DNA of 64,000 nucleotides from Dastarcus helophoroides (Eukaryota; Arthropoda; Insecta; Coleoptera; Bothrideridae). Made by a program: the position numbers and the translations under genes. Positions 1 through 58,178 of this stretch are shown here, piece after piece. The DNA lies in assembly GCA_028583605.1 (NCBI GenBank), contig CM053325.1, positions 46,570,987 through 46,634,986 on the forward strand, in the 5' to 3' direction. Position 1 is the first letter of the stretch; every line of letters begins with the position of its first letter. Below the pieces are notes generated by a model. The model made no database searches. It worked only from the letters and a program-made list of their open reading frames with translations, and was not told the DNA's origin.

Positions 1-150
1 GAATATGACAAAAGTACATTCCAATCATTTTCACAAGACACTGTTTGCATAGCAAGTAAATAAATCACAAAACATAAATAATCAGTAAAAAAATTGTTAG
101 CAATAACAGTTTTCAATGTAAGTATACGAGTGAAAGAAGTCTATAATACA

Positions 151-180
151 CAAGAGTAAATCAAATATGAACTGGAATTT
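151..180 (+). repeat. Left terminal inverted repeat of the mariner
   Basis: Begins CAAGAGTAAATC and runs to GGAATTT. It pairs with the complement of 1392-1421 except at two positions near the outer end. In mariners this is the transposase binding site. Confidence 0.9.
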
Positions 181-298
181 CTATCATGTCAGGGCGTCGG
201 GAGTGTGCGCGTACCCTTAGACATGTTAGGTGAGTACATCACGTGATTTCCTGGGCTCAAGCGAATTCCGTTCTTACCGTTCATCAGTTGTAAATACA

Positions 299-1320
299 AT
301 GAGTGAGCAAGAGATTCATCCGCACGTTGCGCAGCTCATTATTAAATTTCTTGCCATTGAAGGTGTAAAGCCCGCCGAAATTCTTCGTAGATTAGAAACA
401 CAGTTTGAAGATACTTATTTAAAGAAAAGTCAAGTGTTTGAATGGCACAAACAATTTTTGGAATGACAAACTCAAGTTAAAAATAAACCCATGCCCGTTA
501 TCCTCGGACCACTGTGATTGCGGACAGATTAAGGCTGTTCAATGCATTTTGTAAGGTGATCGTCGTTTAACTGTTGATAAAATTGCAGCTCAGCTTTGGG
601 AGTGCTCAATCCATCATTACAGATGACAGTTTCTGTAAGTGGTTACCTCGTGGTGGTTACCTCGTCTTTTGACTGAAGAAGAGAGACAACGTCTGGAGAT
701 TTGTCAGCACTACATTGGACGTTTTCAACATGAAGATGATGGTTGTTTTCAACATGAAGGGATGATTTTTTCCAACGTATCGTTACCATTATACCCCAGC
801 GTCTAAATAAGCAAGCATGAAGTGGAGAAGAAAGGGGGAAGGTGCACTCGTCAAGGCAAAAACTCGCGTCTCAGCTGGAAAGGTTCTTGCGACCGTGTTT
901 TGGGATTTTAAAGGAGTTGTGCACGTCAATTTTCTGCATAAACGTCGTACGGTTAATGCTGCCTACTACTGCCAGCTATTGGATGAAGCAAAACGTGCAT
1001 ATCGGCGAAAGGGTTGCGAATTTTCGGTCAGAAATGTGATTTTGCTTCACACAATGCCCGCCCCCACTAAGCCAATCTGGCAATCAAAAATTAAAGAAAA
1101 TGCATTGGGCAACATTAAAACACCCCCCTTATAGTGCCGACTTATCACCATGCGATTATCATATGTGTGGGCCTCTGAAAGAAGCTCTACGAGGTGAGCG
1201 ATTCCACGATGATGCTGCTGTTGAGACATTTGTGCGCAATTGGCTGCAAACACGCCTTCCTTCATTGATGATGATGGCATTAAAATACTCCAAATCGGTT
1301 GGGAAAAATGCTTAACAAGA
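299..1320 (+). pseudogene. Mariner transposase, broken by frameshifts and internal duplications
   Basis: Reading starts at ATG 299 (MSEQEIHPHVAQ); an upstream in-frame ATG-like start at 230 is not needed. The first part (299-466) is the helix-turn-helix DNA-binding region, including FEWHKQFLE. A second open part (817-1080) carries AGKVLATVFWDFKGV around the first catalytic Asp and ends in a damaged LLHDN motif: one base is missing, so the second Asp is lost. A third part (1100-1315) carries HPPYSADLSPCDYH with the third catalytic Asp of the mariner D,D34D triad. Between about 640 and 765 there are two short direct duplications (GGTGGTTACCTCGT and GTTTTCAACATGAAG), which also break the frame. 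No functional protein is possible. Confidence 0.9.
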
Positions 1321-1391
1321 TCAGGAGATTATGTAGAAAAATAGTTAATAACTTTCATATATGTATCTTGTACCAATAAATTTTTAAAAAC

Positions 1392-1421
1392 AAATTCCAG
1401 TTCATATTTGATTTACCCTCG
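1392..1421 (+). repeat. Right terminal inverted repeat of the mariner
   Basis: Inverted copy of 151-180, ending in TTTACCCTCG and followed by TA at 1422-1423, the expected target duplication. Confidence 0.9.
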
Positions 1422-1485
1422 TAGCTACTACATGAAAATATGAGTTGTCTTGTTAGCTCACCAAGGTGATGATGGTGTGTCCTCT

Positions 1486-1707
1486 CTAAGGCGGGTACTC
1501 ATCAGGAGCATTCACCTGTAATGTGACAAATGCCGACTCTGTATCGAACATTATTTTATAGTGTTGCATTAGCTCTAACACCAAAGAACATTGGTGTGTG
1601 TAACAAAAAGATTTATCTTCGACCAAGCAATTGAATTTGATCGTAATTGGAAAACTCACATTTTCGCTCGGATTATGCGGCCTAATTCTTTCAGTGTAAT
1701 GTGTCAC
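1486..1707 (-). other. Unassigned open segment, possible host exon
   Basis: A 73-codon open stretch whose composition (Cys, His, Trp-poor, mixed hydrophobic, few Lys/Asn runs) looks more protein-like than its AT-rich surroundings; it includes NVSFPITIKFNC and CSLVLELMQHYK. On the minus strand a possible acceptor AG lies at 1688-1689 and a possible donor (CAG then GTGAAT) at 1515-1514, giving a candidate exon of about 172 bases, 1516-1687. I do not recognise the family. It lies just outside the mariner right end, so it is not part of that element. It could be chance. Confidence 0.25.
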
Positions 1708-2235
1708 GTGGAAATAAATAAATATTACAAATTATTACAAAATATAAATATATAGTTTTTTTTGAAATACAATCCTATTGGCATTGTTTTTAATGCAATT
1801 CTGTTTCAGTTGAGAGAAAAAAATGTAAGTAAATCAAAATATTTCCCTCTACTCCACAAACCCACGTACACCTTGCGAGGGCCCGTTAGAACTAAATGAG
1901 TAAAATATTTTTTTATTTTTTGAGATTTCATTGATCATGTTTGATTGGTACTGGGCAGAGAGAAGTTTTTTTTAGACATGCTGCGATTAAGATCTAGTCG
2001 AGATCTAAATTAAAATTTTGAACAAAAAGAAATATTAGGATTATGAAATCACAATTTTAATTGAAAATTTGGAGATTCGATTTGAGCTGAAAAATTTAGG
2101 AAAAGTTAACTTTTTAAAAAAAAACTGAACATTTTTACAGGTTGTAACAAATTCACTTCTCACTATAGGGATCTTGAAAATGGTAAGACATGCAATATCT
2201 GTTAAATTGCACAATTTGACGATCACGAATATTCA
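1708..2235. other. AT-rich spacer with no recognised feature
   Basis: Sequence between the candidate exon and the foldback element. I see only AT-rich unique-looking DNA, with no protein-like frame or structured repeat. Confidence 0.5.
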
Positions 2236-3215
2236 GTTGACAAATCGAAAATATCTCTTGCTGGTCTTGAGGTTTTGGAAGAGAAGTAAAATTTTGAATT
2301 TTCGTTTTTATATTTTTTGCCTTTATTTGAAGAGTAATGAAGAAACAAAAACCACGTTTTCATTGGCGTTTTTTATTCTTTACAAAATAGCACAAGAAGA
2401 TTTTTTATTAGACTTTTTGTCATTTCGTTACCATTATCAAGTTCGTTATTTAAAATGCGAACCTGTAATTTTTATTGCAGCTTTGTGTAGCTTTTGAATC
2501 TTTGACTTTATTGATGTATGTGGCTAAAAGTTTCGTAACTTGAAATCATTATCAAGTAAAAAACATTTTTAGATTTACGCAACTTTAATATTTTTTCATA
2601 CTTAAAACGTAATTATTGGGACGCAATTAATGGGATTATAAAAATGTAATTAATTGGTAAAAAATGGGCTATGGCAGAATTAATAAATTTTTACAAAGAT
2701 CAGCAGACGATCATAAATAATTGACCACCAAAAATAATCGCTAATAACTATGGACAAAACAACTATGGATATTTAGGATAAAAAATAACAAATAAAACAA
2801 TAACTATCATATTTATTTTGTCGAATTTTATTATCTTCTTATTTAAAAATAAAAAATAGGTTCATCTGAAAAAAATCTTTTTTCTTGATGATAGTTTGCA
2901 GTTACGAAACCTTTAGCCACATCAAAGCTTTAGACATCAGTGAAGTCGGAGATTGAGGAGCTATACAAAGATCCAATAAAACTTAGAGGTCCGTATTTGA
3001 AATAACTTACTTGACGATAGGAACGAAAAGATGAAATGTCTAATAAAAAAACTTTTCGGAATATCTTGTAAATAACAAAAAACGCCAATTAAAAAATCTA
3101 TTTAGTTTTTCGATTAGGCTTCAAATAACGTCAAGAAAATATAACAAAAATCCAAAATTTTACTTTTTTCCAATCCCAAGAATAGGAAGGGATATTTTCG
3201 ATTTCTCGACGGCGT
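2236..3215. mobile_element. Foldback element with long inverted arms
   Basis: The left arm (about 2236-2570) is an inverted, diverged copy of the right arm (about 2880-3215). Shared words include AATCGAAAATATC near the outer ends, AAAGTAAAATTTTG, TTGGCGTTTTTT, TTTATTAGAC and, at the inner ends, ATGTGGCTAAA followed by TTTCGTAAC. The centre (2570-2880) is unrelated AT-rich sequence. Long-armed inverted repeats without a gene are typical of non-autonomous foldback or MITE-like elements. An open stretch of 107 codons across the left arm is a by-product of the arm and has no recognisable domain. I do not see a clear target duplication, so the outer limits are approximate. Confidence 0.7.
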
Positions 3216-8128: not shown

Positions 8129-8222
8129 AACTTTCCCCCCAGCTTCAGAAGAATTTAACCTCTTTAGCTTTCGCTCTATATGATTGGCATGTTAGGTAAC
8201 CCTGATATATTGTCTCGAATCA

Positions 8223-13389: not shown

Positions 13390-15400
13390 CAGGAGAAATG
13401 GCAATGAACCGCCTTTTTAAACAAGGATAGATTATAATTTTTGGGGAAAATTCCGTTCAATACCGAGTTCTATAGCTTAAAAGTTCTATAGAAAAAAAAA
13501 GCCTCAGTAGACATAAGTCCTCACTGTATCAAGCTAGACCGCTTCTGAGAGATGTAATTGGCGATGGTGCGTACATGATTGTCCCAAGAGAAGTTGACGC
13601 TCGCATTTACTCATAGAGAAGACATATAAAATTCCATCTGAAGGATTTTAAGGTTCATTAGTATGTTTGTTGCATTATCCATTGATATTTTCTTAGAGAA
13701 AACCACGGCTTAAGTTTTTGAAGCATTGAAGTCTACTTGATTACCTGTATCTGTTGGTCCCTTACATGACCTGAAGCAGCGACGGATAATGGTTTTTCGG
13801 AAAAAAAAAAGATGACACCAGGCAACTATCATGTGCTTAACTGTATATCTGATTGAAAGTTCAAGCTAAGAAATTGTTTATGTGTAACAGAAGCAGAGTA
13901 GGAGATATGACAGACCTTTTAGGCACCCCTGCATTAAGCGCAAATGTCTTGGATGAGATGCCATCGACGACTACCTAAAGAGATCTGTCAGCAAGAAAAC
14001 TGGATATTAAATGACAGAGTCCAGGAGGAAGATCATGGAATGTTAATTTGGCGAGAAGAGATCTGTGCCAGACTTTATTAAAGACCTTTCAGATATCCAC
14101 ACACAGATATAAGTAACATATGCTAGTAGATCATCAGTTGAGCGTTGTTGTCTAAGAGCGTATCGCCTGTCCGAGATAATTCTATTCTCTTTCAGATATT
14201 TAAGAATCTCGATGTGAAACCCTTTTTCATCATTTTAGATATAACGGGCAACAAAGATATAGAGCGATAGTTTTAGCCAGATTCTTTTTTCCCTTTTTGG
14301 GATAGGCTGCACCCTAGCAGATTTTCAAATGTTACGGAATATACCTTTGTTGTAAGAGAGTGTAAATGATTTGCTTAGGACAGAAGTTAACTCTGGGGCG
14401 CACTTCTTAAACCCAATAGCGGGGATATCATTAAGGTCAGAAGTTTTCGAGATGTCGAACTCGAGGAGAATCTTCCTGATTGTGCGTTGTCTAAAAATAA
14501 CCGCAGGCATCGAAGTGCCAACCTTAGGAAGAATAGGAGGTTTTGCGTCTCGAGAATCAAGGTTGGAATTTTCAGCAAAAATTAAGGCTAGCAGGTCAGC
14601 CTTTTCCTTGGAAGTAGTCGCAATATTGTTGTCTTCAAGTAAACGAGGAAAATTTGAAGATGTAAAATTCTTTCCAATCAACTTTGCAAATCCCCAAAAG
14701 AACCTAGTAGCGTTTGGACAGTTGACAAGCTTCTAGCGCATTTTACGATCGAAATCACTTTTTGTCTCGTCAACAAGTGAAGTGATAAGTGAAGGTAATT
14801 GATTTACAAAAATTTCGTGCATTTACAAAGGTAATCCGAGTCTTGACGAAAGGATTATTTTTCCAACGACAATATGCGTGATTTTTGCAGGAGACAACCG
14901 GAGCACATTTTTTGCTAAACTAAGGTTTACTGGAGACACTTCTTTTGGGAATGGGAAATTGAACATTTCAGTGATGGATTCGGTGACTGAGGAAGAGTTG
15001 TCCGAATTGAAGCAGATTTATTGCCATGGAAAATATGCAAAGAAGTCTCTTAATTCCTTCCAGTTTGCAAAGTTAAAGTGCCAAACCCCATGGAGCTGTG
15101 CCTGGAAAGGAGGTGGTATATAAAGCAAACGAGAGGCTGCAACAAGCTTTTAATCGGAATTTCCAAGCGGTGATGTCACAGTGATTTTATACCAATTTGG
15201 AAAATTTGTAAGGAAAAGGTCGAGTAGATTAGGTTGATTGGTATCTACATCAGGAATTCTTGTAGGTTCCTCAACCAATTTCGATAGTCCACAAATGATG
15301 GCCAAACCTCTGCCACCCTTCCCGCGTCGTCAGTTCGGGAAAAAAACCTTAACCAGGGGATATTGTGTACTTTGCATCGAATGGGTATCTTAAAAGTAGT
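13390..15400 (-). pseudogene. Jockey-clade LINE relic (endonuclease plus reverse transcriptase)
   Basis: Read on the minus strand. The apurinic-like endonuclease is at 15150-15400: WLRFFSRTDDAGR, then PTRIPDVDTNQPNLLDLFLT, then SPLGNSD with the final His replaced by a stop. A linker follows, then the N-terminal reverse transcriptase (14325-14681: TIRKILLEFDISKTSDLNDIPA and KKCAPELTSVLSKSFTLSYN), then RRYALRQQRSTDDLLAYVT (about 14115-14170) and VVVDGISS (about 13960). The part that should hold the catalytic F-A-D-D box is not recognisable, and the C-terminal piece (FPKNYNLSLFKKAVH, about 13400-13455) follows after a deletion. Many frameshifts and stops: a dead copy. Such elements copy themselves by target-primed reverse transcription. 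The fragment at 48105-48610 belongs to the same family. Confidence 0.85.
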
Positions 15401-17341: not shown

Positions 17342-17850
17342 TCATAATAGGCGCGCTCTTTTAAAAACTTTCAGATCCTCCTTTATGGGTGTCTCCACTA
17401 TTGTCTTTGGTTCAATCAGAGCATTCCCAAAGCTGGAATGTCTATCCCTTGCCAGAGCCGGACATTTGCTTAATATGTGTAAAGGAGTCTCTTCTTCCTC
17501 TCCACACATTCTACAAGTAGAATTTTCTTTTACGCCAATTTTTGTAAGATGTTTCATTAGGACACAGTGTCCCGTAAATAGTCCAACTGTCCACCTAAGC
17601 TGATTTTTGCTTAACTGTAATAGTTCTCTGGCTCTCTTTTCTGATGGTCCGTCAATGAACTTTCGCGATTGCCTCAGACCGTTGACACCCCTCCAGTGAG
17701 TGCTATGTTTTTTTTCTTAGTAGTTCCTTTATTACCTCTTTTGCCGCTTTGTAGGCAAGCGGTCAAGTAGGTTCCGGCCCTACTAAAGAAAACTCAGCTC
17801 CCCTTCTGCCTAGAAAGTCTGCTCTTTCATTTTCTTCTGAATAGAAAGAA
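17342..17850 (-). pseudogene. LINE ORF2 tail: RNase H end and zinc knuckle
   Basis: On the minus strand the reading begins SEENERADFLGRRGAEF (about 17810-17850), the end of an RNase H domain with the typical N-x-x-A-D pattern. It crosses a stop and a frameshift in a poly-A run, then gives QLRWTVGLFTGHC and KIGVKENSTCRMCGEEEETP, followed by HILSKCPALA. The C-x2-C-x8-H-x4-C zinc knuckle after RNase H is standard in I/R1-type LINEs of insects. The coding part ends near 17342, before a poly-C run at about 17322-17332. The RT region upstream is missing, so this is a 5'-truncated, dead copy. Confidence 0.8.
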
Positions 17851-37194: not shown

Positions 37195-37760
37195 CCTTTT
37201 TTAAAAAGGTTTAGCTTTTCTTCAAAACCTGGTTCTCTCCTAGACTATCTGCAAATTTTGACTTGTTCCCAAAATTATGATTGTTTTTTTTTAAGTTTTT
37301 ATTTTTTTAGAAATTCGACCTGTTCTAAAAATTCTCAATTTTTGACAATTTGGACTTGTTTATTAAATTTTATCATTCTTTCAAAATTTTGACTTTCCTT
37401 TTCTCTCTGAATTGGTTCTAACAACATTTATTAATATTTCTACAACTAATTTTTCTTCGAAATTTATGTTTCTTCAATTATTCTTTTTCAGTACAATTTT
37501 GTCACCAATATTAAAATTTATCTTTAAATTTAACTTTTTCTAAAATATTTTGTCTCTTTTTAAATTTTGGTCTTTTTTGAAAATTCATATGCTTTTTTTC
37601 TAAGGTAGATTTTTTATAAAATGGTATTTTCTTGGTATTTCAATTCATTATTAAATTCGTCCAATTTTTTAAAATTTCTACTTTATTGCCAAAATTTCGT
37701 TTTTTTTTTCTCACAAATTGATTTGCTAATATAAAGTCCCGCACAGGTATTGTTTAAAAT
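37195..37760. repeat. Degenerate AT-rich quasi-repeat, T-rich strand
   Basis: Recurring TTTTGACTT, AAATTTTGGTCTTTTTT and AATTTCGTTTTTT words; the reverse orientation of the tract at 23450-25880. Confidence 0.55.
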
Positions 37761-38020
37761 ATTCTCTGTAATTTATTTGCGAAGTATTCATATTTGTATG
37801 CAGTTTTATTGGCTTTTTCTTCGCCGGTCACTCCTTTCACAATCCTAAATTTCAGTACCTTCTATTAAGGAATGGCAATCTGTTTTAGATTGCCGCAAAC
37901 AGCGATTGCGTTAGATCTTGGTTTGTCAATCGCTGTTTGGGACTCAACACTGAAAAACACTTAAAACCATATTAAAATTTAAACGACGTAAAAAATAAAT
38001 AACAACAAGATTATTTAAAA

Positions 38021-38065
38021 TTTTAACGATTCGGGCAGTGTTATTCTCTGCCCGTCGTCAGAAAA
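38021..38065 (-). ncRNA. Hammerhead-ribozyme-like motif downstream of a Penelope-like ORF
   Basis: On the minus strand: four T (38065-38062), then CTGACGA (38061-38055), then a perfect 7-bp hairpin CGGGCAG / CTGCCCG (38054-38048 and 38038-38032) with a 9-base loop, then AA, TCGTT and four A (38024-38021) that can pair with the opening four T. This follows hammerhead order. The core is damaged, however: an extra C (or a missing G) at the stem II junction, and U where the consensus has A15.1. It lies about 80 bases after the stop of the GIY-YIG ORF, where Penelope-like elements are known to carry hammerheads. Confidence 0.5.
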
Positions 38066-38142
38066 CCAATTCAAATGTATTCCTTTACAAATTTTTTTGT
38101 AAGCTGTCAGAAAGTAATTCTGACAGTTTATTAGGTTATTCC

Positions 38143-38952
38143 CTAGGTGATTCTAAGGCGACCCAGTTGTTTTTCTCGTTTTAACAATGGCAGCCACATA
38201 CCGTTAATATCAATCGAACAATTTGCGACACAGTTATCTCCATTTAGTAAAATTAAAGCTGCTTCTTTAATTTTTCTTTTTTCATAATGTGTTTCTTTGC
38301 CAATAATGCAGGACTTTGTCCACTGAACTCTGTGATCGTATTGAAAAGAGTGTTCGCAAATTTTCGATTTTGAAAAATCTTCCTTACTTAGGTAATTCTT
38401 ATGTTCGTTAATACGAATCCACATAGGTCTGGTTGTTTCACCTATGTAAATTTTGTTGCATTCACAGGTTATTTTATAAATACAATTTTTAATATGTTGT
38501 GTTTCATTTTTTGGTTTTGTATTTACTAGTAATGATCTTAGAGTATTTTGGGTTTTGAATGCTGTACGTATATTGAACTTTTGGCCTATTCGTTTGATTT
38601 TATTCGAGAGACCTGGTATGTATGGAATAATTAAGGTTTTTTTATCTTGAATGGGTGATGTGTTTATGATGCCATGATTATGATTGTGTGATCCTGATTC
38701 TCTTCTGTTTATAACTTTTTCCACAAAATCTTTTTGATACCCATTTTTTTGTAATACTGATGTAATATTAATTTTTTCTTTATTATATATTTCAGAACTC
38801 GTGCTGATATTTTTAGCTCTGTCAATTAAAGAAGTTATTACACCTATTTTTATATTTTTACTGTGATTTGATTTGGTGCTTGCATTCCAAGGCTTCTTGA
38901 CCCACATGGAAATAATTAAAAAAGAGCCTGATTTAGCTGAAGGATAGCACAA
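38143..38952 (-). CDS. Penelope-like element protein, C-terminal part with GIY-YIG endonuclease
   Basis: A 269-codon open frame, the longest in the window. Residues about 30-75 (NHSKNIKIGVITSLIDRA) match the thumb/linker that follows the RT in Penelope-like proteins. Residues about 155-215 form a GIY-YIG nuclease: IYKITCECNKIYIGETTRPM, then RINEHKNYLSKEDFSKS and CEHSFQYDHRV. A Cys pair (CEC) and the C-terminal SIDINGMWLPLLKRE also fit. In intact elements the RT copies RNA and the endonuclease nicks the target. The RT core is missing upstream (5' truncation, or divergence around 38950), so the first Met is not the true start. The open frame suggests a relatively young copy. Confidence 0.85.
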   Translation of the reverse strand: MCYPSAKSGSFLIISMWVKKPWNASTKSNHSKNIKIGVITSLIDRAKNISTSSEIYNKEKINITSVLQKNGYQKDFVEKVINRRESGSHNHNHGIINTSPIQDKKTLIIPYIPGLSNKIKRIGQKFNIRTAFKTQNTLRSLLVNTKPKNETQHIKNCIYKITCECNKIYIGETTRPMWIRINEHKNYLSKEDFSKSKICEHSFQYDHRVQWTKSCIIGKETHYEKRKIKEAALILLNGDNCVANCSIDINGMWLPLLKREKQLGRLRIT

Positions 38953-39300
38953 AGATCAAATTTGACTTTAACATTATTTCATTCATTTCAAGTTCTCCCA
39001 AGACAGTAATTGCGGTTGGAATTGAATATTTTGGAGCGATCCGAGGCAATCTCATAAACTGGGTTTGTAAAGAACTTATTGCGAATTGCGAATGAATGGG
39101 TTTTACCTTAGACATTATAACTAAAAATGGGCATTCTCTTTTTGCAATTATAATTCAAGAACAATTTAATAAAATTTCAAATTGAAAGAAATTAAATGAT
39201 TTCATTTGGTCTGTTGACTGTTCACTGCAGAAATTGCTACAAAACCCTAATTGTGCGCACCAGACTCGCTCTTGGTTGAATTTTTAAATAATTGCCACGT
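38953..39300. other. Flank of the Penelope-like fragment
   Basis: An open stretch at 38933-39115 (minus) has no RT motif that I can recognise. This is probably the point of truncation. Confidence 0.35.
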
Positions 39301-54541: not shown

Positions 54542-54742
54542 ATACAAATATTGTCGCCTAAAACTAAGAAAGATTAAAAAACACAACAAAGCTTGCTCTA
54601 ACACGTTTCGCCAGCCAAGCTATCATCTTTAGAGAGATGTAGTATTTCTCTGAAGATGATAGCTTGGCTATTGAAACGCGTTAGAGGAACCTTTGTTGTG
54701 TTTTTTAATCTTTCTTGGTTTCAGGGGACAAGATTTGTATTT
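54542..54742. repeat. Near-perfect inverted repeat, Penelope-like terminal sequence on both arms
   Basis: Arms of about 98 and 96 bases around a tiny loop near 54640. Shared in inverted order are ATACAAAT-TTGTC, AAGAAAGATTAAAAAACACA followed by ACAAAG, CTCTAAC-CG, and AGCCAAGCTATCATCTT. Each arm contains AAGATGATAGCTTGGCT followed by GAAACG, the style of Penelope-like terminal ribozymes. Head-to-head terminal sequences are typical of the complex inverted or tandem structures left by Penelope-like insertion. Confidence 0.8.
54645..54687 (+). ncRNA. Hammerhead-ribozyme-like motif in the right arm
   Basis: Stem I TTTCT (54645-54649) can pair with AGAGG (54683-54687), with two wobbles. CTGAAGA (54650-54656) is followed by a hairpin ATAGC / GCTAT (54659-54663, 54667-54671) with a G-U pair and one extra U. 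Then come GAA (54673-54675), a self-complementary ACGCGT (54676-54681) and T at position 17. The left arm carries the mirror copy with CTAAAGA, one core base changed. The order fits a hammerhead with a dimer-type stem III; the extra U weakens the case. Confidence 0.5.
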
Positions 54743-57781: not shown

Positions 57782-58178
57782 AGGTTGCATTCTACTTGCA
57801 TACGACATTGTTGGCGATGGCCATAGTTTCTCTATGGACCAATAGGTGGTAGTACTAAGAATCACACGCTTGACGTCCGTGAATTCTTTAGTACTTACTT
57901 GTCGGAACATTTGTTAGCATTCGAGTTGGATATACCAAACTGACGAGATCTAACAAGATCGAAACCGGTCTTTGGTTTCCAAACTTCAAATCTAATACAT
58001 CTTCAAACCTATTGGTCTGTGCATTAGAATCCTTGTCTTCTGGGAAATTTTTCTTAGAGAGCAACCGCTTCGCTAGGTGGTAGTGTTTCAACTGTTGGTA
58101 GTTCAACTACCTCTGATTCACTATACACGCCTGGGGGGCTGCATGAATTTGTAGTCTAGGTTGCATTCTACTTGCATA
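57782..58178 (+). mobile_element. Retrozyme-like unit: 376-bp repeat-flanked block with a hammerhead ribozyme
   Basis: A 21-bp exact direct repeat (AGGTTGCATTCTACTTGCAT plus A) begins at 57782 and at 58158, an offset of 376 bases. The block is clearly less AT-rich than the tract before it. It contains a consensus hammerhead (57934-57976) and other strong hairpins: CCATAG / CTATGG (about 57820-57837), TAGTACTAAGAAT against ATTCTTTAGTACT (about 57849-57896) and GGTAGT / ACTACC (about 58097-58111). An 11-base direct repeat TAGGTGGTAGT is at about 57842 and 58074. The longest open frame (72 codons, minus) has no domain. The pattern fits a small non-coding element propagated through circular RNA, or one unit of a ribozyme-bearing tandem repeat. 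Confidence 0.6.
57934..57976 (+). ncRNA. Hammerhead ribozyme, complete consensus core
   Basis: Parts in order: stem I 5' strand ACCAAA (57934-57939); core CTGACGA (57940-57946); stem II GATC / GATC (57947-57950, 57957-57960) closed by TAACAA; core GAA (57961-57963); stem III ACCGGT (57964-57969), which is self-complementary; C at position 17 (57970), the expected cleavage site; stem I 3' strand TTTGGT (57971-57976), pairing perfectly with ACCAAA. All core positions match the consensus CUGANGA...GAA...NUH. Stem III has no loop, so as a monomer it would be poor; two copies could share a 6-bp stem III, as in known dimeric hammerheads of newt satellite RNA and Penelope-like elements. Confidence 0.85.

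Follow-up and report, generated by a model that had tools for sequence, protein, structure and literature searches.

What kind of element is a 376-nucleotide (nt) repeat that carries a ribozyme and no recognizable protein, and, if it spreads through RNA, which enzyme returns it to DNA? This question is raised by a locus in the 64,000-nucleotide stretch of the Dastarcus helophoroides genome analysed here (hereafter, the window).

The ribozyme-bearing unit and its genomic family

The repeat occupies positions 57782-58178 of the window (plus strand) and was initially described, from the letters alone, as containing a complete hammerhead ribozyme. The letters agree with this description throughout: the core bases are where they had been placed (CTGACGA at 57940-57946, GAA at 57961-57963, and C17 at 57970), and so are both strands of stem I (ACCAAA, 57934-57939; TTTGGT, 57971-57976), stem II, in which GATC and GATC enclose TAACAA (57947-57960), and the self-complementary ACCGGT proposed as stem III (57964-57969). 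Motif letters and the Rfam model Hammerhead_HH9 together define a type I core at 57934-57976, plus strand, with stem II in the form GATC(T)/(A)GATC, and the predicted cut falls between 57970 and 57971, that is, u189/u190 in the numbering of the unit. The presence of a complete type I hammerhead in the 376-nt unit is thus confirmed as a real observation.

The preliminary description named the lack of a covariance-model hit above threshold as evidence against it, and, strictly taken, such a hit is lacking. In a 1-kb search with Rfam, the best match is Hammerhead_HH9 (37.0 bits, E 1.5e-7, model positions 1-77 of 77, spanning 57922-57993), and the E-value in the whole 64-kb window is 9.7e-6, but the score is below the gathering score of 52, at which the window gives no hammerhead match, so that a default Rfam scan overlooks this ribozyme. 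Nor is a bare motif scan decisive by itself, because the relaxed hammerhead motif yielded 35 matches in 200 control windows generated with a first-order Markov model. A second hammerhead was sought on the minus strand of the unit with both Rfam and motif scans, and none was found. In 53 of 62 copies from the 30 loci that best match the unit (L001-L030), all core bases are preserved, whereas stem I is paired in 55 of them, stem II in 51, and stem III reads ACCGGT in 45; the mean mismatch in these copies is 1.3% at the ribozyme core vs 3.8% at the remaining positions of u150-201. Stem III can be read either as one pair with a palindromic CCGG or, in a dimer, as a loopless helix. Given that it is so short and palindromic, the hammerhead probably works as a dimer; the energy of the two-strand co-fold (-27.7 kcal/mol, compared with 2 x -11.3 kcal/mol for the single folds) allows a dimeric hammerhead and does not demonstrate one.

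The window copy comprises 1.06 laps of the unit, that is, u1-u376 followed by u1-u21 of the next lap, as delineated by alignment to the unit and by a 21-bp exact repeat (57782-57802 and 58158-58178; offset 376); similarity to the unit end extends further back to 57779 (u374), with one mismatch. Among exact direct repeats spaced by 200-800 in the window, this is the only one to exceed 18 bp. The repeat had been thought to flank the unit. Its existence stands, but not the flanking role: it is the wrap-around overlap of a copy slightly longer than one lap, because tandem copies elsewhere in the genome have the same spacing of 376 and share the 21-bp stretch. A target duplication was considered as well and ruled out, given the spacing of the tandem copies and the recurrence of a 3' end at u21 at unrelated sites, and a fold test of the repeat was weak (z about -1.7; 16/200 and 12/200 replacements were equally good). 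At the borders of the window copy, no target duplication was found, the best match of 6 bp being at chance level, and the repeat search showed no long terminal repeat at the unit. The copy carries one ribozyme only, so that, alone, it cannot release unit-length RNA.

The unit indeed has no recognizable open reading frame (ORF), as originally stated: the longest frames around the circle are 63 (plus strand) and 72 (minus strand) residues. Being non-coding, without an ORF for a reverse transcriptase (RT) plus a GIY-YIG endonuclease, it is not itself a Penelope-like element (PLE). The GC content is 41.6%, and the predicted fold has an energy of -123.7 kcal/mol (z -5.59), with 0 of 100 shuffles as low.

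The genome searched comprises 539 Mb in 50 contigs. The ribozyme pattern, allowing up to 3 mismatches, occurs at 8,217 sites, compared with 0 for a reversed control, and a search with the unit gave at least 105 matches on contigs C1-C13, with 40 of 2,665 first-look candidates scored. Among the scored matches, identity to the window copy is 91-95% where almost the full query is covered, and several of these matches are tandem, about 376 apart; tandem spacing at many loci supports the unit length of 376 nt. Relatives are abundant, and single-copy status, named in the preliminary description as evidence against a mobile element, clearly fails. The reading of the unit as a small mobile element is supported by its dispersed and partly tandem occurrence, from the thousands of ribozyme sites, and from features published for metazoan retrozymes. 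One locus (L048, positions 1-3031) is an array of a related, shorter unit, with a spacing of about 319 and 73-100% identity by piece, perhaps a second retrozyme subfamily. The same assembly also contains a COX1-like mitochondrial sequence (C3:12967862-12970609), in two pieces 1.4 kb apart inside a 47-Mb contig, which is either mitochondrial DNA copied into the nucleus or a join made during assembly. Read with the invertebrate mitochondrial code (code 5), its best match, at 95% identity, is a Cucujiformia record; the others among the 120 matches listed of 7,997 scored are 88-91% identical and mostly bear beetle names, so that a cucujiform beetle is the probable host.

Metazoan non-LTR retrozymes, as characterized by Cervera & de la Pena 2020 (PMC7229834), resemble the unit in their type I hammerhead, length of 170-400 nt, low GC content, lack of coding capacity, strongly paired RNA, dispersed tandem copies, and the presence of PLEs in the same genome. 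The account in PMC7229834 also includes target duplications of more than 4 bp, and border matches of at least 9 bp are enriched in the unit family (see below). Tandem copies, a retrozyme feature, are present in the family and absent at the window locus. The stem III of the unit, with one pair and four palindromic bases, resembles the newt and axolotl type of that account, according to which most invertebrate hammerheads, unlike the unit, have a stabler stem III. Thus, the 376-nt window unit is a non-autonomous retroelement of the metazoan non-LTR retrozyme kind, and the family to which it belongs in Dastarcus helophoroides is new.

A viroid-like RNA replicon captured by the genome would share some of these properties, the RNA being small, highly paired, non-coding and potentially circular. 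Such an origin is exceedingly improbable, given that the ribozyme is found on the plus strand only, that the genomic sites number in the thousands, and that no match was detected in viral contigs (with an exact 26-nt pattern) or in phage records, although few beetle RNAs are to be expected in either collection.

Two fixed 3' ends and head-to-head arms

Reverse transcription copies RNA in the 3' to 5' direction, so that insertions with the same 3' end share the point at which cDNA synthesis began, and the 5' end marks where it stopped. We mapped the ends of copies in a sample of 80 loci, namely, L001-L030 and the first 50 listed ribozyme-pattern sites (L031-L080; all on contig C1, with 0 mismatches to the pattern), a choice that makes the sample lean to young copies and ribozyme-bearing arms. 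The loci were aligned to the repeated unit, and arms of at least 61 bp were kept; arms that were shorter or lay within 20 bp of the locus end were left out, and overlapping loci were counted once, resulting in 144 distinct arms.

Most of the 3' ends (111/144) lie no more than 8 nt from u21 or u250, where about 13 would be expected. Separately, 44 of the 144 fall this close to u21 (start point A) and 67 to u250 (start point B), with about 6.5 expected for each; the corresponding numbers for 5' ends are 4/144 and 6/144. The modes are at u20-22 and u248-250, with a lesser one at u253, and both start points are evident in either part of the sample (A and B account for 21 and 20 of 50 ends in L001-L030, and for 23 and 47 of 94 in L031-L080). 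The distribution of the 5' ends is broad and non-uniform, with 70/144 (17/50 in L001-L030) in u90-u169, a crowding that is due in part to the sampling, because the ribozyme (u159-189) was the basis on which 50 of the 80 loci were chosen. In the window copy, both u1-u21 stretches (57782-57802 and, in the second lap, 58158-58178) end at A, and 58178 is the 3' end of the insertion; B, the preferred 3' end elsewhere, is located at 58029-58031 (plus strand) and is read through.

Grouping of the arms gives 98 insertions that span at least 61 bp and do not come within 80 bp of a locus end; of these, 43 are head-to-head, that is, both outer borders are 3' ends, and 0 are tail-to-tail. At least one A or B end is present in 85 of the 98, and neither type in 13. 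Among the 29 head-to-head insertions in which both ends could be classed, 27 combine A with B, with 1 AA and 1 BB (binomial p 8e-7). A stricter count, limited to directly adjacent arms, gives 30 head-to-head and 0 tail-to-tail insertions (17 AB, 1 AA, 1 BB; in the other 11, an end remained unclassed). At the borders, exact matches spanning 9 bp or more were found in 28 of the 98 insertions vs 1.7% of 972 re-paired borders, although not all of the 28 are true duplications: in L024, the match is the element's own sequence and, in L048, it lies within a tandem array. By class, such matches occur in 18/43 head-to-head insertions, the other 25 having none of 9 bp or more, and in 10/51 single-arm insertions.

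These observations bear on the possibility that the unit is ordinary satellite DNA that was amplified by recombination and contains a hammerhead incidentally. Cave-cricket pDo500 (PMC2837043) and newt satellites are comparable hammerhead repeats from an insect and amphibians that, in the available accounts, are described as satellite DNA. The 376-bp units do occur in tandem, and some arrays, for example, L048, may have expanded secondarily, but short insertions dispersed over contigs C1-C13, with target duplications and fixed 3' ends, make satellite DNA a very improbable explanation for the copies sampled.

A different possibility is that a LINE moves the unit in SINE fashion, with inverted arms resulting from twin priming, a process that yields head-to-head inserts. 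The duplication lengths overlap, and the window itself contains frames that we take to be LINE-like, one at 14328-14732 and another, of 124 residues, at 17345-17716 (minus strand), presumably resembling the end of a LINE ORF, for which a database search found no relatives. (Additional frames, at 811-1312 on the plus strand, are presumably remnants of a mariner-type transposase.) In twin priming, however, the inverted arm starts anywhere, whereas both arms of the retrozyme insertions end at fixed points, A being combined with B in 27 of 29 cases. Furthermore, AAAAA was found within 9 nt after the end in only 1 of the 111 arms ending at A or B, even if a poly-A tail is not universal among LINE-mobilized elements, and the retrozyme has its anatomy in common with the PLE of this genome. 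Mobilization by a LINE is, accordingly, improbable.

The arms also carry information on the template. They reach 3.64 laps, and 46 of 143 exceed one unit. Divergence between laps is 5.8% within an arm (n=62), 7.4% between the two arms of one insertion, and 9.3% between insertions (n=16,074), and, at 43 of 51 loci, laps resemble one another more closely than they resemble those of other loci. Repeated copying of a single small template predicts that laps within an arm are alike, but the same holds for laps derived from one genomic array, which makes the argument weak. Arms read through the cleavage site in 158 instances, and the 5' end lies within 5 nt of this site in 3 arms, which is about chance. 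The template therefore was continuous at this site, being either a re-closed circle or an uncut multimer.

If, instead of a closed circle, the template were a multimeric transcript left uncut, the mobilizer would be the same and the hammerhead would be dispensable for insertion. The crossings of the cleavage site and the paucity of nearby 5' ends fit uncut RNA equally well, and the report on a published PLE (PMC11167929), in which uncut RNA is inserted in vitro and hammerhead mutants still inserted, calls for caution in this respect. The closer similarity of laps within an arm points the other way, if weakly, for the reason given above, and so do the better conservation of the ribozyme core compared with its surroundings and the published abundance of metazoan retrozyme circles (PMC7229834), which favours a re-closed circle. 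On this evidence, we consider an uncut template unlikely but deserving of serious attention, and retain the re-closed circle in what follows.

The Penelope-like element of the same genome

On the basis of general likeness and co-existence, PLEs have been named strong candidates for the return of retrozymes to DNA (PMC7229834). The window contains part of such an element at 37759-38955 (minus strand), with the 3' region and a long (tailed) 3' end, as recognized from sequence relatives and genome copies. The ORF is open only in the C-terminal part (38146-38955, minus strand; 269 residues), in which Pfam found no domain. In a longer copy (L081), Pfam identifies RVT_1 at 6.6e-11, and the GIY-YIG label derives from the names of the protein relatives, not from Pfam; the named relatives come from beetles (Exocentrus, Diabrotica). 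A genome search produced at least 147 matches, with 143 of 3,399 candidates scored, and the longest open frame among those listed is 841 residues.

Where PLE copies of opposite strands are neighbours less than 4 kb apart, they are head-to-head in 11 of 11 cases. Of 13 PLE 3' ends that were read, 8 have a 31-nt tail and 5 have none, and all five head-to-head pairs examined consist of one tailed and one untailed arm. The duplications are 11-13 bp in the 4 pairs for which they were computed, and an 11-bp one is visible in the letters of the fifth pair (L082/L083). The element with the 841-residue frame is itself head-to-head (L081/L092, C2:6437880-6441400), with a short, tailed left arm, a long, untailed right arm and a 12-bp duplication.

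Elsewhere in the window, a long imperfect palindrome (54556-54726) matches Rfam MIR5048 with a score of 46 vs a cut-off of 160, and its ends, by eye, resemble the flanks of another PLE insertion (L086/L087). This palindrome may be a dispersed MITE-like repeat and not a microRNA.

Similar layouts have been described for PLEs of other animals. Penelope of Adineta vaga has head-to-head arms, an optional 31-bp tail on one arm, and duplications of 8-10 bp that are not present in every copy (PMC3846280), and PAc of Anolis starts at two internal sites and, in vitro, cuts and extends both strands of the target (PMC11167929). In these two accounts, PLEs resemble the unit family in having two RT starts and head-to-head arms, and their features further include extension of both target strands, a tail on one arm and duplications of about 8-13 bp; PAc, like the unit, contains a hammerhead (PMC11167929). 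Unlike the PLEs, the unit lacks an RT-endonuclease ORF, and it is almost unrelated in sequence to the PLE of this genome. Among hammerhead repeats, the combination of two fixed 3' ends and head-to-head arms found in the unit family is absent from the main text of PMC7229834. The Schistosoma W elements / SMalpha are small hammerhead repeats that are considered mobile, with one presumptive target duplication, but a two-ended head-to-head anatomy is not described for them in the available text of PMC8490949. Our search for prior descriptions of such insertions among retrozymes covered part of the literature, and we do not claim that it is absent from print.

The PLE contains, in its 3' region, a hammerhead-like motif (38030-38061, minus strand) that reads as CTGACGA, a stem II of 6-7 bp and GAA, with one extra base beside the core compared with the canonical form; Rfam found no hammerhead in the 3' region of the window PLE. 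In the L081 copy, the motif is GAAACGTT and includes a palindromic ACGT, which, from its letters, may form a short stem III analogous to that of the unit; in the window copy, it is GAATCGTT. The sole 7-mer shared by the PLE and the unit, TGCATAC, is located at start point A and at the untailed PLE end, and, by likeness to the PLE, A ranks 1 of 376 at 12 and 14 nt, and 2 and 3 at 16 and 18 nt, respectively. At start point B, no common 6-mer was found. The sequence likeness of the start sites is thus suggestive, and for A only. The spacing of the start points is about 31 nt in the PLE vs 148 or 228 nt in the unit. Nevertheless, because the retrozyme insertions and the PLE show the same anatomy, we infer that the enzyme involved is the PLE RT-endonuclease; most likely, the retrozyme is mobilized by the PLE machinery, by two-site target-primed reverse transcription.

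A proposed cycle and a candidate start structure

The explanation that best accounts for the whole, and that we regard as probable, is that the retrozyme is copied from a 376-nt RNA and inserted by the PLE enzyme from two fixed starts. Genomic copies of at least two laps would be transcribed, each lap would be cut by the hammerhead, probably as a dimer through ACCGGT, and the unit-length RNA would be circularized by a host ligase, by analogy with published retrozymes. The PLE RT-endonuclease would bind the retrozyme RNA and cut the two DNA strands at positions staggered by about 9-15 bp, and reverse transcription would proceed from A (u20-22) and B (u248-250), typically, one per DNA strand. 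It is this two-start step to which the two sharp 3' ends, the head-to-head arms, the combination of A and B ends, and the target duplications point. The cDNA may make more than one round of the template, which would account for arms as long as 3.6 laps, and the two arms would then be joined, consistent with the anatomy of the insertions. The window copy would be a single arm that began at A and ran for 1.06 laps, thereby creating the 21-bp repeat.

Structure prediction offers a candidate for what the enzyme might recognize. In the circular fold predicted for the window copy, u8-13 pairs with u244-249, and u16-20 with u238-242, so that A and B are located at the 3' ends of the opposite strands of one helix (strand 1, u8-u20, 57789-57801; strand 2, u238-u249, 58019-58030; both on the plus strand). 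Such a placement at both 3' ends of a single helix, to within 1 nt, would apply to 117 of 70,500 position pairs (0.17%). When full copies are folded as circles on their own, the minimum-energy fold keeps this helix in 22 of 42 and ribozyme stems I and II in 29 of 42. The strands of the helix are 96% conserved vs 90% for the whole aligned stretch, but a neighbouring helix is also 94-96% conserved. The alignment of the helix contains almost no compensatory changes, mostly single-sided ones, and covariation was dropped as an argument because there is too little variation. As a start structure, the predicted helix is a lead, not a result. Tentatively, and with slightly less than even confidence, we propose that the 3' ends of the u8-20/u238-249 duplex might be the two RT starts, used at once by a dimeric Penelope RT, one per cut DNA strand. 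If so, the retrozyme would be a Penelope parasite that imitates the start structure of its host element rather than the sequence, and metazoan retrozymes would gain an identified mobilizer.

To the question of how animal retrozymes return to DNA, the 98 insertions sampled offer a specific answer that is amenable to in vitro tests, namely, a 376-nt RNA with two starts at defined bases, each serving one target strand. Through the anatomy of the insertions, with the same layout in a PLE from this genome, an animal retrozyme is tied to Penelope-type mobilization, and paired 3' ends in any retrozyme family would point to its mobilizing enzyme in other genomes.
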